Positions 1,203 to 9,113 of a stretch of DNA of 24,267 nucleotides are shown here, piece after piece. Where the stretch lies: IMG/VR virus record IMGVR_UViG_3300004369_000143, positions 1 to 24,267 of that record. One strand, given 5' to 3'. The notes under the pieces are model-generated. The model had not been told where the DNA came from and did not search any database. It saw only the letters and a program-made list of their open reading frames with translations. The DNA comes from a virus. Made by a program: the position numbers and the translations under genes. Position 1 is the first letter of the stretch; every line of letters starts with the position of its first letter.

Positions 1203-1673
1203 TTAAGCATCCCAGAACAGCCGCATGATGTGCGGGCGTGCCCACTTGTTCAGGTAGGAGAAAGGCCCAGCGCCGGACGTGTCGGACTCCGTTGCGAAAA
1301 GCGCCTCAATCTCGACGGTGCGGCCACACTTTGTGATGGCCACCATCGCGTCGAGTGCCAAAATTCGGAGCCCTTGACCGAATTCAGAGCCCCCCAGCCC
1401 GTCCGCAGGCGGCATGTGCAGCGCGGCAGAATCGGCGAGCCGGTAAAGCTGATCGCACATGGCGGCGCGCACTTCCTGCCAGTGAACAGAAAGGGCCGCT
1501 GCCTGCGCTTGCCGGGCGCGCTGGCGGGCAATGAGGGGCTCTGCGATGGCTTCATTCAACACAGCGTTCATCAGCGTGTTATCGCTAATGTGGTAGTGCG
1601 GCTGCTCGGCAGTGTGGTCGCTCACGTCCGTGCGTTCGGCGTATTCGACACGTGCCGGAATCGGGTTGGTCAT
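1203..1673 (-). CDS. Hypothetical early phage protein, 156 aa
   Basis: ATG at 1673 is preceded by GGAG eight bases upstream. The 156-residue protein has an acidic/polar N-terminus (EYAERTDVSDHTAEQPHYH), a long alanine-rich helical middle (about 40-85), and an aromatic C-terminus (YLNKWARPHIMRLFWDA). No membrane segment, catalytic motif or known fold is evident. It lies directly downstream of the ribbon-helix-helix gene (33-base gap) and is probably cotranscribed with it. The long plus-strand ORF across it is antisense and lacks protein-like features. Confidence 0.75.
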   Translation of the reverse strand: MTNPIPARVEYAERTDVSDHTAEQPHYHISDNTLMNAVLNEAIAEPLIARQRARQAQAAALSVHWQEVRAAMCDQLYRLADSAALHMPPADGLGGSEFGQGLRILALDAMVAITKCGRTVEIEALFATESDTSGAGPFSYLNKWARPHIMRLFWDA

Positions 1674-1706
1674 GCCGGGTGCTCCAGAATGGGTGAAGTG
1701 CGGGGG

Positions 1707-1892
1707 CTAGGCGGCGCTGTTGCCCGCCTTCTCCTGCCGCCAGGCAGCAATGCCGCGAATGGCTGCGGCCACCACTGCGTTCTGAAAGGAGGGGCGCAAG
1801 TCTTCTTTCTGAAACTGCTCAATCGCCCCTGCCACATCCGGCGGGAACTCGATGGTTTGCCGCTTGGCTTTTGTGGTATCGTTTGCGTCCAT
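1707..1892 (-). CDS. Arc/MetJ-type ribbon-helix-helix transcriptional regulator
   Basis: A 61-residue protein with a strand-like segment RQTIEFP (about 15-21), a first helix DVAGAIEQFQKE, a turn LRPSF, and a second helix QNAVVAAAIRGIAAW. This is the size and pattern of ribbon-helix-helix repressors, which bind DNA as dimers through the N-terminal strand. I chose ATG 1892 (GAGG six bases upstream) over the GTG at 1919, which would sit almost at the predicted transcript start. The gene heads a leftward operon, and a perfect palindrome overlaps its candidate promoter, so self-repression is likely. Family level is fairly secure; target DNA is inferred. Confidence 0.7.
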   Translation of the reverse strand: MDANDTTKAKRQTIEFPPDVAGAIEQFQKEDLRPSFQNAVVAAAIRGIAAWRQEKAGNSAA

Positions 1893-1920
1893 GCCGTGCC
1901 TCGGTGTGTTGTTATTCACT

Positions 1921-1933
1921 GTCTGTCACAGAC
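1921..1933. promoter_or_regulatory. 13-bp palindrome, candidate operator
   Basis: GTCTGT and ACAGAC are perfect 6-bp inverted arms around one central base. The site overlaps the -10 region and predicted start of the minus-strand promoter, immediately upstream of the ribbon-helix-helix gene, and lies between that gene and the divergent plus-strand ORFs. Position and symmetry fit a repressor operator; binding is inferred. Confidence 0.5.
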
Positions 1934-1960
1934 TCTACTAGCCAAAAGTAGGAGAATCAA
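1932..1960 (-). promoter_or_regulatory. Candidate sigma70-type promoter for the ribbon-helix-helix operon
   Basis: On the minus strand a TTGATT -35 element (1955-1960) is followed by 17 bases and TAGAGT (-10, 1932-1937). Transcription would start near 1925, about 33 bases before the chosen ATG at 1892. The -10 overlaps the palindrome at 1921-1933. Confidence 0.5.
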
Positions 1961-2074
1961 ATTGTTTTAGGCGGTAGGGAGAAAATACTTTCCGAACTGG
2001 CTGATCGAATAGAGGAATTACGCGGGTTCTACGATCCGTCACAGAATGGCGCGGATCGCGGCGAAGTTGGGTAA
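1961..2074 (+). pseudogene. Plus-strand ORF without a normal start, possible remnant
   Basis: This frame reads 37 protein-like residues, including ILSELADRIEELRGFYDP, then TAA at 2072. No ATG, GTG or TTG is available in frame after the upstream TAG; the only well-placed codon behind AGGAG (about six bases) is ATT at 1961. It may be the front of a decayed gene whose later parts lie in other frames at 2101-2324, or a gene using a rare ATT start. Charge pattern and helix periodicity argue against pure chance, but evidence is limited. Confidence 0.3.
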
Positions 2075-2100
2075 TATAGAACCTGAACAACGAGGATGTG

Positions 2101-2262
2101 ATGAGCGTTGACATTTTTGACTTTATGCAAAACCGTAATGGATATGGCTGTGACATTATGCGGGAGTATGTAAATATCGCCTGGGAGCGCTTACACAAGT
2201 ATCGTGCTGGAACTCTGCGCACGCGCCCAATGGATCGACCCATATATGAACCGAACAGCTGA
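2101..2262 (+). CDS. Small plus-strand hypothetical protein, 53 aa
   Basis: ATG at 2101 has a good ribosome binding site (CGAGG, five bases upstream). The 53 residues (MSVDIFDFMQNRNGYG, then IMREYVNIAWERLHKYRAG) look like a real folded protein: a mixed acidic/aromatic start, one amphipathic helix, and a Pro/Arg-rich tail. It reads opposite to all surrounding phage genes and the DNA is AT-richer than its neighbours. The stop TGA shares one base with the next ATG. No family recognised. The minus-strand ORF over the same DNA lacks a ribosome binding site and is poor in acidic residues, so I favour the plus strand. Confidence 0.6.
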   Translation: MSVDIFDFMQNRNGYGCDIMREYVNIAWERLHKYRAGTLRTRPMDRPIYEPNS

Positions 2263-3961: not shown

Positions 3962-4060
3962 CGTTTCCCCTTGCGTTGTGTGTTGTTCACTTGACTTGCC
4001 TCTATCCTCTCACATTCTTTGTAGGATTGCAACACCTTGGATGAATTTTTATCCCTAGTT

Positions 4061-4089
4061 ATTACAGTGATATGGTTCTGTGTGGACAA
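4061..4089 (-). promoter_or_regulatory. Candidate sigma70 promoter for the leftward early genes
   Basis: On the minus strand TTGTCC (-35, 4084-4089) and TGTAAT (-10, 4061-4066) are separated by 17 bases in an AT-rich block. Predicted start is near 4054, about 90 bases ahead of ATG 3961. The -10 matches consensus at five of six positions, the -35 at four. Confidence 0.5.
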
Positions 4090-4112
4090 AAAAGTTTCAG
4101 CACACGTCAAAT
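4083..4112 (+). promoter_or_regulatory. Candidate divergent plus-strand promoter
   Basis: On the plus strand TGGACA (-35, 4083-4088, five of six consensus) is followed by 18 bases and TCAAAT (4107-4112, four of six). Its -35 lies on the same bases as the -35 of the leftward promoter, so the two could not be used by polymerase simultaneously. It would drive the plus-strand ORFs from about 4119. Confidence 0.35.
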
Positions 4113-4138
4113 AATTGATGCGCTGCGCCGTTAGGTTT

Positions 4139-4309
4139 ATGGTGGATGCAGACACTAGCACTGGAGGTGAGATTGACAAAGCAGAACCCTCCAGCACCTT
4201 GAGCGAAGAGGCCGAGCGGAATACAAGGGTGCTGGGCATATCGCTAGAAGCGATGATCATCTTTCCGGATGAGGGTGCGCCGGACTATGAACAACGCTTG
4301 GCAGAGTAG
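4139..4309 (+). CDS. Small acidic plus-strand hypothetical protein, 56 aa
   Basis: ATG 4139 opens a 56-residue acidic ORF (DADTSTGGEIDKAEPSSTLSEEAERN..., then LGISLEAMIIFPDEGAPDYE) ending TAG at 4307. Upstream AGG is close to the ATG and the ribosome binding site is modest. The composition (many Glu/Asp, one hydrophobic strand) is more natural than the overlapping minus-strand frame, which has almost no acidic residues. It is the first of two plus-strand ORFs in an AT-richer island, opposite to the phage late genes. No family recognised. Confidence 0.4.
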   Translation: MVDADTSTGGEIDKAEPSSTLSEEAERNTRVLGISLEAMIIFPDEGAPDYEQRLAE

Positions 4310-4319
4310 AGGGCTAAAT

Positions 4320-4682
4320 ATGAAAGGGGACATTGTAGTGAACAGCGGCAGTCATCCGCACTACGCTCAAGGCTTGTGGGATCACAGGCCAGAGGTGAGC
4401 GCCGATGAGGTAGACGCCAGGCCAAGCCTAGCCGATGAGCAGTGGGCTAGGTACGTCGGTCCTTATGAATGGTGCGCCGCTCTTGTTAGGGTGGCTGACG
4501 CCAGGGCCATAAGCCTGAGCAGCAGGGCTAGGCCACGGCCCGCAGCCGCTTCTCCAGCAGGGCTAGCTGTTCGCCTTGATCCGCCCGTATATGGCCATCA
4601 ATCCCCCTGCCGCTGTGCCCAACGCTGTAACAATGGTGCTGACCTCGCTCTCGCTGATGCCCAGTTGCGGGACCAGCGCTGA
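4320..4682 (+). CDS. Plus-strand hypothetical ORF running antisense into the lysis cassette
   Basis: ATG 4320 has AGAGGG six bases upstream, overlapping the stop region of the previous ORF, so the pair may be translated together. The first 75 residues look genuine (MKGDIVVNSGSHPHYAQG, then EQWARYVGPYEWCAALVRVADARA). From about residue 82 the frame is antisense to the holin-like gene, and its Pro/Ala/Arg/Cys-rich sequence looks like shadow translation. A likely reading is a gene whose true 3' end was lost at a mosaic junction near 4560. Convergent overlap is about 120 bases. Function unknown. Confidence 0.4.
   Translation: MKGDIVVNSGSHPHYAQGLWDHRPEVSADEVDARPSLADEQWARYVGPYEWCAALVRVADARAISLSSRARPRPAAASPAGLAVRLDPPVYGHQSPCRCAQRCNNGADLALADAQLRDQR
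4520..4566. repeat. 12-bp direct repeat after the lysis cassette
   Basis: CAGCAGGGCTAG occurs at 4520-4531 and again at 4555-4566, 35 bases apart; the second copy covers the TAG stop of the holin-like gene. Two copies bracketing the end of a cassette may mark a small duplication or a recombination scar. Confidence 0.4.
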
Positions 4683-4730
4683 GCAAAGCAGCACCACGAT
4701 CCCGATGTACGTCTTCTTGCCCTTCAACAT
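4563..4730 (-). CDS. Internal-start holin-like small membrane protein, 55 aa
   Basis: An in-frame ATG at 4730 inside the 97-residue ORF carries the best ribosome binding site of the region, AAGGAGG five bases upstream. The product MLKGKKTY... has two membrane spans (about 9-26 IGIVVLLCSALVPQLGI and 32-48 IVTALGTAAGGLMAIYG) with a positively charged N-terminus and short charged tail (GRIKANS). Size and topology match class II holins and small phage membrane proteins starting with similar MLKG(K/Y)KTY sequences. Next to an M15 endolysin this is a plausible holin. It may be the main product of this locus; see the longer form. Confidence 0.65.
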   Translation of the reverse strand: MLKGKKTYIGIVVLLCSALVPQLGISESEVSTIVTALGTAAGGLMAIYGRIKANS

Positions 4731-4856
4731 AGTGCCTCCTTGCGGTTTGGCGTATTGCCACAGCACATCATGCGCCACGACAGGTGCGACTTCCTTTGCG
4801 GTCTTTCGCGCCACCCAACTGGCGATGGCCGATACGATCAGGGGGATAGGGATCAT
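4563..4856 (-). CDS. Longer form of the holin-like membrane protein, 97 aa
   Basis: ATG 4856 overlaps the previous stop by four bases (ATGA) but has no recognisable ribosome binding site of its own, so it would depend on translation of the preceding gene. It adds 42 residues (MIPIPLIVSAIASWVARKT, then a mostly charged linker to Met43) to the internal-start protein. The added part could make a third membrane contact, giving a long/short pair as in holin/antiholin systems with dual starts, or the locus may be an accidental fusion of two genes. The existence of both products is inferred from start-site quality. Confidence 0.5.
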   Translation of the reverse strand: MIPIPLIVSAIASWVARKTAKEVAPVVAHDVLWQYAKPQGGTMLKGKKTYIGIVVLLCSALVPQLGISESEVSTIVTALGTAAGGLMAIYGRIKANS

Positions 4857-5167
4857 TGCGCGACCGGCACTAGAAGTATTTTCTGCGCCAGCACCACAGT
4901 GCTAGGGAACAGCAAGCCGATCACGGCGAGCTCCACAATGTTCCGGTCAATCCAGTCCCACTTGTTCTTGTGCGCCTCGCGCTTGAACTTCTTGAACACG
5001 CGATACACCGCCAGCACCACCACCAGCCCCAGGGTCTTGATCGTGGCCCAGGCTTCATCAGAGAGCAGCACCGGCATGTCTGCCGCACCGTAGGCGTGCT
5101 GTGCCCAGGTGAGGCTGATGAGCAGCAGGACGGCCCCTGCAATCCACGCCAGGCGTTCGCGGGTCAT
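4853..5167 (-). CDS. Small membrane protein of the lysis cassette, holin candidate
   Basis: A 104-residue protein with three hydrophobic segments: residues 8-22 (WIAGAVLLLISLTWA), 44-60 (KTLGLVVVLAVYRVF) and 78-98 (VELAVIGLLFPSTVVLAQ), separated by a strongly basic loop (KKFKREAHKNK). The N-terminal segment may act as a signal anchor. ATG 5167 overlaps the endolysin stop by four bases and has GAGG just upstream. Three-span topology and position suit a class I holin; a role as a holin accessory or antiholin is the alternative. No spanin pair is seen next to it. Confidence 0.65.
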   Translation of the reverse strand: MTRERLAWIAGAVLLLISLTWAQHAYGAADMPVLLSDEAWATIKTLGLVVVLAVYRVFKKFKREAHKNKWDWIDRNIVELAVIGLLFPSTVVLAQKILLVPVAQ

Positions 5168-5562
5168 CCTTCCTCGATCAGCTCAAAGTGGCAGAGGTCA
5201 TCGAAATTGTTGTCCTTCACTTCCGTGTCACCATCCCAGTCCCCACCCCACCTGAGCCGGATGCCCATGGAGCGCGCCGTGGCCATCACCTGCCCAGCAA
5301 AATAGGTCTGCCGCTCGCGGTCTTTCCAGTCGATGGGGTAGCACTGCACGTCCACCGCGTTGGATGGCCACGTATTGTGCCTGCCATTCGGCCACTTCAC
5401 CTGAGACAGGCCCTCGGCAACCTTGGCGTTCTGCTCAATCTTGTTGCGGTGCCCGGTGATGATGCTGCAATCGAAGTCCTGCACCACGCGCTCAAAGATC
5501 GTGCGAAGACTGTGGTGGCAGGTTTTCAGGCGCTCTGCGCTGCTCTGTCCGAAGGTGGGCAT
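5164..5562 (-). CDS. Endolysin, M15-family peptidoglycan endopeptidase
   Basis: A 132-residue protein matching the VanY/L-alanyl-D-glutamate peptidase (M15) fold used by many phage endolysins, which cut peptide stems in peptidoglycan. Zinc ligands are visible as His62 and Asp71 (RHNTWPSNAVD) and His125 (DLCHFEL), with Asp122 a candidate catalytic base; ITGHR near 35-39 and the RWGGDWD segment at about 104-110 are family landmarks. The normal motif begins SKH; here Arg-His is found. No signal peptide, so export needs a holin. ATG 5562 with GGAG four bases upstream; overlaps the next gene by four bases. Confidence 0.88.
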   Translation of the reverse strand: MPTFGQSSAERLKTCHHSLRTIFERVVQDFDCSIITGHRNKIEQNAKVAEGLSQVKWPNGRHNTWPSNAVDVQCYPIDWKDRERQTYFAGQVMATARSMGIRLRWGGDWDGDTEVKDNNFDDLCHFELIEEG

Positions 5563-5655: not shown

Positions 5656-6303
5656 CTAGAGGCCCAGCGCCAAGTCCACCGTGGCGTAGACCACGCCCAC
5701 ATTGAACAGGGCGCTGGTGCCCGCGGGGGCCAGCACGGTCATGCCCAGCGCGTAGGTGGGCGGGATGATGAACATCCCCTCCACGTCCGCCACAAGGCCG
5801 GAGCCAATAGACGCAGCGCTCAACTGATCGCGGCTGGCCACGTTCACCCAGATCGGGGCGCCCGCCAGCGTCACATTCTGCGCAAAGACGCCATTCGTGT
5901 CCGCGCTGCCGGGCGTGATGGCCTTGTGCACGCTGCTGGAGTATGCCGACGGGGCGCTGGCCTGCGCGGCGCTGGAGATCCCGGCCAGCAGGCTCATGCC
6001 CAGGCCAAGCGTGCCCGATACCGAGTGTGCCGTGATCTTGAGCACCACGAGGTGTTTCCCGGTGTCGCCATTGTAGAGCGCCCAGGCTGCGGTGGTCGTG
6101 GGCAAGGCGTTCACCGGCGCAATGGCCGTACCGGCTCCCGTGCTGGCCGCATAGAGCCGCTGCCCCCGCGCGAACTCCATGTATTTGGGGTTCACCGTCT
6201 GGACGTGCAGGCCGCCCGTGGGCAGCAACTGCAAGGGACTGATCCCGCCTTTCGGCAGGCTGGCGGCATTCTGCACAAAGCCGCGTTGCATATCTGTGCT
6301 CAT
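5656..6303 (-). CDS. Conserved-type phage virion protein, 215 aa
   Basis: I start at ATG 6303 because of the near-perfect GGAGGTGA ribosome binding site; the longer reading to 6363 adds a non-protein-like leader. The 215-residue product is beta-rich with alternating Gly/Ser/Thr/Val, little charge and no cysteine (segments GGLHVQTVNPKYMEFARGQ, LYNGDTGKHLVVLKITAHS, MFIIPPTYALGMTVLAP). It resembles small beta-sandwich structural proteins repeated in podovirus late clusters (minor capsid, head fibre or decoration proteins). It stands between the ejection genes and lysis genes with its own strong ribosome binding site. Confidence 0.6.
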   Translation of the reverse strand: MSTDMQRGFVQNAASLPKGGISPLQLLPTGGLHVQTVNPKYMEFARGQRLYAASTGAGTAIAPVNALPTTTAAWALYNGDTGKHLVVLKITAHSVSGTLGLGMSLLAGISSAAQASAPSAYSSSVHKAITPGSADTNGVFAQNVTLAGAPIWVNVASRDQLSAASIGSGLVADVEGMFIIPPTYALGMTVLAPAGTSALFNVGVVYATVDLALGL

Positions 6304-6380
6304 CTCATCACCTCCGTGTGGTGTCGCTGGCAAGCAAAGTCTAGTGCACGCAAGGGCCAGCACCCCGCCACACCCTTCCG

Positions 6381-9113
6381 CTACCGGGACATAGCCCGCC
6401 CCACGGTAGTCTCTGCACGTTCACCCGTTTTCAGCCCGCCCAGCCCACCTTGCGTGGTCTTCACCACCCCGCCGCCGCTAGAGTTGCTTTGCTGTTCTTG
6501 CTGCGCCTGTTCCGCGTTCTCGCCTGCGTAGCTGGCCTGCATAGCGGCCACAAAGCCCGGCTCAAAGGATGGGTCGAGCGGCACGCTGAATAGGATGGAA
6601 AGTTGGCCGCGTTGCTGGTACGATAGCGTCTCTTGGAATTCGGGAATCCGTTCCACCAGCCGCATTTGCAATTCTTGAAAAAGCGCCGGATAGACCGTCC
6701 GAATCGCTTCCACGCCCTCGCGGTTGACGCGCCCTGCGGCCATGTCGCTCAGAAAGGCGCCGGGGTCAGCGACGGCCGCGACGTAGCGATTGAACCGCGT
6801 GATCTCAGTATCGTCGGGCTGCCAGCGCCCACTGTGCCGCCCTAGGGGGTCGTTCCCCAGGTCGTAGGGGCTGGCCGGGGCCTTGCTGAGCAGAAAGCCA
6901 ACGGCGGCCTGAGCCTGCGCAGTCATGGCCATGCCGGTCTGTGGCGCAGTCTCCAGGACTGCTCCCAGGCTCTCCTGGATACGCCGCGCCATAAGCGCCT
7001 GGTCTTGGCTCAGTTGCCGCAGGGCCGCCACCTGGGAATGAAACGTCTTCTGGCGGGTGGAACCTCGATACTTGCTGAGTTCTTCGCGGCCTTTCTCGCC
7101 GGGGTCGGTCAGGTTGAGCCCCGCGACAGTGAGCGCGGCCCCGCCCGAATTGCGGACAGCACGCTCAGCAGCCTCCCCGGCTGCGCGCGCCCCACGCTTC
7201 CCGGCGGCAAAGGCCCCGTCAACCGCCTCATCCATCTTCCGCGAAAATTCCTGCGCTGACCGCTCAAGGTCGGCCAGGGATGCCACGCGCACGCTGATCC
7301 CGCCCACCCGCTGTGCGGCCCTGTTGAGCACGTCCGCGGTGACCGCACTGAGCCTTCCGCGCAAAACCTTGTTCCCTGCGGCGCCCAGCAGCCACGCTCC
7401 TGCGGCCAGGTCGAGGTCAAAGTCGCCGTCCATCATGGAGGCTACTCCGCCCACGCCACCAAACAACATGCCCATACCGTAATCCGATGGGCTTACAAAG
7501 CGGTTGGATGTGTCGCCTAGAATGCGGTCTTCCGCGAAGTCCGCGGCCATCTTCATGTTGCCGTACAGCCGCTTAACCTCGCGGTAGGTGTCCTTGAAGG
7601 TCTTGCCCGCAGTGCTGCTGGCCAGCTTGTCCGCGCTTTCCTCCAGGTAGTCTTCCATCACGCCGCGCAACTCGCGCAAGGATTCCACCTTGGGCGACTG
7701 GCTCAACTGGTTGCGGTAGGCCACGCTGTCGAGCGTCACCCGCGCCTTGTGCAACTGGCTGAAGGTCATCTGCTCAGGCAGCGCGTTGTCCAGCGTTGCC
7801 AGTTCCCGCTTGAGCGCCCGGCCAATCACGCGATCATCGTAACTGGTGCTGGTCAGGTACTTCTCCACCACCGGCTGCAGGCGCGCGAGCATGGCGGACT
7901 TGCGCGGCATGGCGCCACCCGGCGCGGCCTTGCTCAACCCATCCCACAGGGCACCGATCTGCTGGCCGTAGAAGTCTTTGCGCTCTGCGGCCTTCTTGGC
8001 GATGGTTTCCATCGTGTCTTTGTAGGTGACCACCCCTTCGTTGAGCAGGTCGCGGCCAAACTGCTGCACGCCGCCCTTGCGCGCGTCCAGAATGCGGAAT
8101 GCCCGCTTGTTCTGGCCAATGGCAGCCTTGGCTGCCCGCTGCTCTGCAAAGTCGCTCAGGCCCTCAGTGGCGATGCTCAGGAATGCCTCATCGGTCTTCT
8201 TGCCAGCCGCCGCGGCCGCAGCTCCCGTGCCGCCAGCGCCGCGCGCCCCTGCTGGTACTAAGCCGCGCTCGGCCACTTCACCGGCTGCCTCTGCACCTTC
8301 CGTCAGAAGCTTCTGCCCTGCGCGGCCCTCAATCGTGCCCGCGGGCGCCATGCGGCTGCGAAAAGGCTGCAGCGCCGTTTCTGCCCCAAACTTGAGCGTC
8401 TTGCCCAGGGCCCGCTGCGCCGCCGTGGCGCCCCCACCCAGTACAGCGCCCAGGCCCACCGTGCCCAGGATCTGCGAAGCCGTCAGATCGGGGTTGTCCG
8501 TCAGGCTGGCCTCGGTCACTACCTGCCCGGCGCCATAAAACGCACCCTCCACCGCGCTGCCCGCAATCGCCCGCGCGCCCGCGCCCTTGACAATGCGGCC
8601 AGCAATCGCCTGGGAACTGCGCTGCGCCAGCCGGGGCAGGGCCGTAGCCGCCTGCGCCGCCGCGCCCGCCGTGGTGGTCGGCTCAGGCAGCAGGAAGGGA
8701 ATGGCAATGCCGCCAATTTCCCCCACCGTGCTGGCCACGGGGTTGCGCTCCATGCGCTCCCGCAAGCCCTCCTTGTCCACGCCCATCTTGGTCAGCGCCG
8801 CGTCGCTCAGGCCAAAGGTGAGTCCGCGGGCCGCGCCTTCTATCCCGGCACGCACCGGGTTGAGCGCGCCTTCCCCGTACTCCTTCTGCTTTCGCCGCTC
8901 TTCGGCCTCTGCCGCCGTCTCCAGCCGCCACCCGGCGCGGAAAGCGTTGTGCGCCTCCTCTGCGCTCAGGGCCCCGCGCTTACCCTCCGGGCTGACCACG
9001 CGCAGGGATTCACCGGCCGGCAGGGTGTGCGTGCCCGCCGCCACCAGCCGCGTAGCCTCTTCCTCTGAGGCGTCTACCGTGCGCTGGGCCTGCCAGTCGT
9101 AGAGCTGCGGCAA
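6381..9113 (-). CDS. Large internal virion (ejection) protein, 910 aa
   Basis: The frame opens with TTG at 9113, preceded by GAGGA seven bases away, inside the end of the previous gene. An N-terminal domain of about 80 residues (LYDWQAQRTVDASEEEATRL... GKRGALSAEEAHNAFRAGW) is typical of phage internal proteins, followed by glycine/alanine-rich stretches (ARAIAGSAVEGAFYGAGQ, TVGLGAVLGGGATA, GMLFGGVGGVASMM) suited to membrane insertion, and long helical middle and C-terminal parts. It should be packed in the virion and enter the cell with the DNA. No lysozyme motif is seen. Late-operon order supports the role; the family assignment is moderate. Confidence 0.65.
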   Translation of the reverse strand: MPQLYDWQAQRTVDASEEEATRLVAAGTHTLPAGESLRVVSPEGKRGALSAEEAHNAFRAGWRLETAAEAEERRKQKEYGEGALNPVRAGIEGAARGLTFGLSDAALTKMGVDKEGLRERMERNPVASTVGEIGGIAIPFLLPEPTTTAGAAAQAATALPRLAQRSSQAIAGRIVKGAGARAIAGSAVEGAFYGAGQVVTEASLTDNPDLTASQILGTVGLGAVLGGGATAAQRALGKTLKFGAETALQPFRSRMAPAGTIEGRAGQKLLTEGAEAAGEVAERGLVPAGARGAGGTGAAAAAAGKKTDEAFLSIATEGLSDFAEQRAAKAAIGQNKRAFRILDARKGGVQQFGRDLLNEGVVTYKDTMETIAKKAAERKDFYGQQIGALWDGLSKAAPGGAMPRKSAMLARLQPVVEKYLTSTSYDDRVIGRALKRELATLDNALPEQMTFSQLHKARVTLDSVAYRNQLSQSPKVESLRELRGVMEDYLEESADKLASSTAGKTFKDTYREVKRLYGNMKMAADFAEDRILGDTSNRFVSPSDYGMGMLFGGVGGVASMMDGDFDLDLAAGAWLLGAAGNKVLRGRLSAVTADVLNRAAQRVGGISVRVASLADLERSAQEFSRKMDEAVDGAFAAGKRGARAAGEAAERAVRNSGGAALTVAGLNLTDPGEKGREELSKYRGSTRQKTFHSQVAALRQLSQDQALMARRIQESLGAVLETAPQTGMAMTAQAQAAVGFLLSKAPASPYDLGNDPLGRHSGRWQPDDTEITRFNRYVAAVADPGAFLSDMAAGRVNREGVEAIRTVYPALFQELQMRLVERIPEFQETLSYQQRGQLSILFSVPLDPSFEPGFVAAMQASYAGENAEQAQQEQQSNSSGGGVVKTTQGGLGGLKTGERAETTVGRAMSR

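Follow-up and report, generated by a model that had tools for sequence, protein, structure and literature searches.

Organization of the lysis genes

The window, meaning the whole stretch of DNA that was analyzed, is a 24.3-kb linear virus record with a GC content of 62.6% by base composition. A tailed-phage structural block lies on its minus strand and includes a portal-like protein, an SU10-type capsid protein, and long structural genes. The lysis genes come after this block in the order of an endolysin, a 104-residue protein, and an open reading frame (ORF) of 97 codons. The features are listed below.

5164-5562, minus strand: M15-peptidase-like endolysin (phrog_465, 4.6e-31), with hundreds of phage relatives
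4853-5167, minus strand: orphan protein of 104 residues with three hydrophobic stretches, the upstream partner in any coupling
4853-4856, minus strand: ATGA overlap formed by the stop of the 104-residue gene and the start of the 97-residue ORF, read from the sequence
4563-4856, minus strand: 97-residue ORF (long form), first ATG at 4856
4731-4856, minus strand: in-frame extension of 42 codons found in the long form only, an open frame whose translation is uncertain
4735-4741, minus strand: Shine-Dalgarno (SD) sequence AAGGAGG, 4 bases ahead of the ATG at 4730 (-11.4 kcal/mol)
4563-4730, minus strand: core of the two-span holin, 55 residues (short form), the likeliest main product as judged from its SD and the profile of its relatives

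The M15-type endolysin is located two genes upstream of the 97-codon ORF, and an ATGA overlap is found at both junctions, endolysin/104-residue gene and 104-residue gene/97-residue ORF. The locus is probably a phage lysis cassette composed of an endolysin, a 104-residue membrane protein, and a holin. The 104-residue protein (4853-5167, minus strand) has three hydrophobic helices, its N-terminus resembles a signal peptide, and no relatives were found across all the libraries searched; it may be a second holin or the antiholin of the cassette. No spanin gene, RNA family, or tRNA was recognized in the window, and the vicinity of the lysis genes yielded no promoter-like site. The cassette is followed by about 600 bases (3962-4562) that hold no convincing gene, and the next small genes lie beyond them. 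Separately, the gene at 5656-6303 on the minus strand is listed as 235 residues from a GTG at 6363; the ATG at 6303 is its more likely start because of the strong SD there (-10.8 kcal/mol).

Two nested start codons and their ribosome binding sites

Two in-frame start codons, the ATG at 4856 and the ATG at 4730, share one reading frame. They predict products of 97 and 55 residues that differ by the 42-residue extension, and both products contain the same two membrane spans, at residues 50-68 and 72-90 of the long form, with Kyte-Doolittle means of 1.94 and 1.51. SD strength was calculated as the energy with which the 16S tail pairs to the sequence ahead of each start. The 20 bases upstream of the ATG at 4856, CTTCTAGTGCCGGTCGCGCA, pair at only -2.4 kcal/mol, a value matched or bettered by 66% of the 363 ATGs on the strand. 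This start is without a usable SD, and its pairing is at the level of an ordinary ATG. The internal ATG (4730-4728) is preceded by AAGGAGG at 4741-4735 with the spacer CACT. Its pairing energy of -11.4 kcal/mol is reached by 0.55% of the ATGs on the strand. The internal SD exceeds chance expectation, since it is the strongest among the gene starts compared in the window, against -2.4 kcal/mol at the long start. A comparable SD was found at only about 3 of the 109 internal ATGs of the other genes in the window, and one of them seems to be where its gene really begins. Thus a plausible ribosome binding site is present at one of the two starts, and the long start could work by coupling only. The main features of this layout had been described in the first-pass annotation (the 97-residue ORF opening in an ATGA overlap without a ribosome binding site, the internal ATG with a near-ideal AAGGAGG, and the two predicted products with common spans), and they hold as sequence.

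The layout of the long start was also compared with chance by hand calculation. A stretch of 41 codons stays open with a chance of about 31% at 62.6% GC, an A precedes 19% of TGA stops, and one third would fall in frame. Taken jointly, these three requirements have a chance of about 2%, so the layout deserves some weight, and the long start stands only weakly above chance. It also fits the style of the operon, because the endolysin/104-residue junction is an ATGA as well.

The core belongs to a family of two-span holins

The first scan for relatives gave one sequence (L001), and a scan with the motif YGR-x-KA added some 40 relatives in viral contigs, mostly of 65-75 residues with two spans. 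PHROG 34682, annotated as holin, was matched by 22 of the 25 aligned sequences (best 5.3e-15), and PHROG 29088 by 23 of the 25. A profile built from 31 relatives without the window matched the core at an E value of 5.7e-10 among 465 frames; the match is limited to the core, with nothing ahead of it, and the 55-residue product fits the family over nearly its whole length. When the window protein itself was scanned against PHROG, no family was matched, PHROG 34682 included, and its tie to that family runs via relatives found by a motif taken from the window protein itself. The C-terminal similarity is partly by construction, because the motif scan was built from the window core. Independent of the motif scan are the alignment of the N-terminal K-T-x-x-G and the gene context. 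In several phages, the gene of the relative lies directly behind an endolysin-like gene and ahead of a gene for a small lipoprotein similar to an outer-membrane spanin, the neighbor genes being read by eye and not scored.

The window core shares with the PHROG 34682 (65 residues) and PHROG 29088 (143 residues, no assigned function) type, both matched by its relatives, the two spans, the GG-x-x-A-I-Y-G-R-x-K-A end, and the place behind the endolysin; it differs in being about 10 residues shorter and in lacking the W-Y-x-S motif. Hydropathy and the helices of the structure model agree on two membrane spans followed by a short charged C-terminus. Together with the profile match over the core, this similarity supports the core as a member of a known two-span phage holin family, and by this membership the protein would form the hole that lets the endolysin out. 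The holin-like identity proposed in the first-pass annotation is likewise supported by the family profile and the lysis neighborhood.

Other searches of the window protein gave negative results. No tblastn matches to the 97-residue protein were found in phages or plasmids, and none to the proteins of its relatives; these negatives are weak because low-complexity filtering probably masks small membrane proteins. Scans of genome contigs by exact peptide words gave no relatives, Pfam and NCBIfam gave nothing meaningful, and no solved structure matched. Foldseek found no match among viral models, as expected at a pTM of 0.34.

Most relatives begin where the window has its internal ATG

Start positions were compared as the distance from the motif. 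The relatives start 45-57 residues upstream of it, nearly always with an SD; in the window this distance is 42 for the short form and 84 for the long form. A start at the core position with a pairing of -5 kcal/mol or better and no extension was found in about 34 of the 41 relatives, a count that omits incomplete or doubtful frames by judgement. Conservation in the family is thus seen for the core start only. In about six relatives (L090, L137, L144, L093, L150, and L091), an upstream start gives a longer N-terminus, and an extension recognizably like that of the window was found in none of them.

The window is not the only case in the family in which a holin start lies within a longer in-frame ORF. 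In the contig L143, a single frame of 282 codons (1322-2170, plus strand) encodes a CHAP-like endolysin (phrog_8781, 1.1e-33), then a charged linker, and finally a holin core of the same family; a very strong SD and an ATG at 1994 belong to the core itself. The SD marks the core start here too. The frame is either a fusion of endolysin and holin in one frame, with a start inside it, or an artefact of assembly, and no phage record spans it as a whole. Another contig, L145, contains a frame of 205 residues (8225-8839, minus strand) in which the family holin core continues in frame into lipoprotein-like sequence, a possible holin-spanin fusion or nested gene.

Coding signal of the 42-codon extension

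The in-frame codon score of the extension is the best of its six frames, yet among real in-frame windows it ranks at the 1.6 percentile, and the synonymous-only score ranks at the 1.8 percentile. The GC3 is 0.63 in the extension versus 0.82 in the core. Codon use leans against translation of the extension without deciding, because low codon scores were also found in some other small genes at the same end of the window. AlphaFold places a helix at residues 4-36 of the extension (pTM 0.34), a weak prediction since this part has no homologues; the scans run detected no relatives of the extension. When a profile was built from the extensions of three relatives, the window ORF was the top match, at a non-significant E value of 2.8, out of register and equalled by 44 of 2000 shuffles. 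Homology of the extension with the N-termini of the extended relatives was rejected as not significant. Sister phages were sought via the portal protein. One relative of 85% was found on an 8.6-kb contig with no match to the lysis cassette, and this search gave no close sister phage for testing the extension.

Comparison with known dual-start and two-span systems

The lactococcal phage TP712 produces Hol88 and Hol74 from two ATGs. It resembles the window in having a two-span holin, two in-frame ATGs, and an N-terminally extended long form (PMC4749879). It differs in that its extension is a highly charged stretch of 14 residues and both forms were demonstrated by expression; an ATGA-coupled start, as in the window, is not described in the sections cited here. 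Three further systems resemble the window in layout: TcdE (PMC6200909), in which the N-terminal extension is absent from related phage holins and the internal start is stronger, but which has an extension of 24 residues, three spans, and a long start with its own SD; lambda S107/S105 (PMC7312051, PMC12642591), with nested in-frame starts in the holin gene, but a two-residue extension and a three-span class I holin; and gp62 of phage N4 (PMC12642591), a two-span lysis protein or regulator with two possible starts that adjoins a second holin-like gene, but which has 109 residues and an SD at both starts. Among the TcdE isoforms M1, M25, and M27, the longest carries 24 additional residues; its initiation is poor, and it inhibits lysis (PMC6200909). 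The extension lengths in these precedents are 2, 14, and 24 residues, versus 42 in the window.

Proposed model and alternatives

The best explanation, with a probability of about 0.68, is that the holin is the 55-residue two-span protein from the ATG at 4730, with little or none of the long form made. We infer this dominance from the SD and the relatives; that part of this SD is predicted to be paired counts against it. In this model, the 55-residue holin would begin at the ATG at 4730 through its own SD, insert into the inner membrane, oligomerize, and open that membrane late in infection, giving the endolysin access to the wall. The 42 in-frame codons upstream would be an untranslated leader between two genes, or alternatively would yield a minor 97-residue form via termination-reinitiation at the ATGA. 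Translational coupling is the usual case for gene pairs that overlap, and in bacteria a coupled start of the ATGA type can be functional (PMC6728339). The long form, where made, may act as an inhibitor, a role suggested by the nearest precedents, TP712 Hol88 and TcdE-M1.

It is unlikely, though worth weighing, that both forms are made, the 55-residue form as the effector and the 97-residue form as an antiholin-like product whose dose follows translation of the 104-residue gene. The ATGA/nested-start layout, the TP712 and TcdE precedents (PMC4749879, PMC6200909), the usual coupling of overlapping pairs (PMC6728339), and the positive charges that the extension adds ahead of the first span argue for it. 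Against it, the extension is absent from the relatives as a rule, its coding signal is weak, and the ATG at 4856 has no SD; in E. coli, reinitiation dropped upon SD removal for 4 of the 5 gene pairs examined (PMC6728339). The first-pass annotation had predicted two products with a coupled long form, to be refuted if homologues as a rule lacked the first 42 residues. This is largely what was found, because about 34 of the 41 relatives start at the core without an extension. The nested starts stand as sequence, the conservation of both starts does not, and the use of both with the long form as a coupled antiholin is unproven, its likelihood lowered by what the relatives show. A still less likely version is an inhibitory long form with a 42-residue helical extension, made only by ribosomes just finishing the upstream membrane protein.

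It is improbable that the 97-residue form is the sole product, with the internal SD arising by chance and the extension being an N-terminal domain as in a minority of relatives: the longer N-termini of L090, L137, L144, L093, and L150 and the top match to the three-extension profile favor it, whereas that match is non-significant and out of register, comparable internal SDs are rare in the other genes, and the long start has no SD.

Implications for lysis control

Should the long form exist, the balance between coupled and independent initiation in a single gene would determine when lysis occurs, which would tie the lysis clock to upstream translation by simple means. If it is made only by ribosomes finishing the upstream gene, the holin/antiholin ratio would be a readout of the translation of that gene. 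If the long form is not real, the locus is a reminder that genes of a compact phage operon need not start at their first ATG, and the relatives and the SD strength would put the holin start 42 codons further in.
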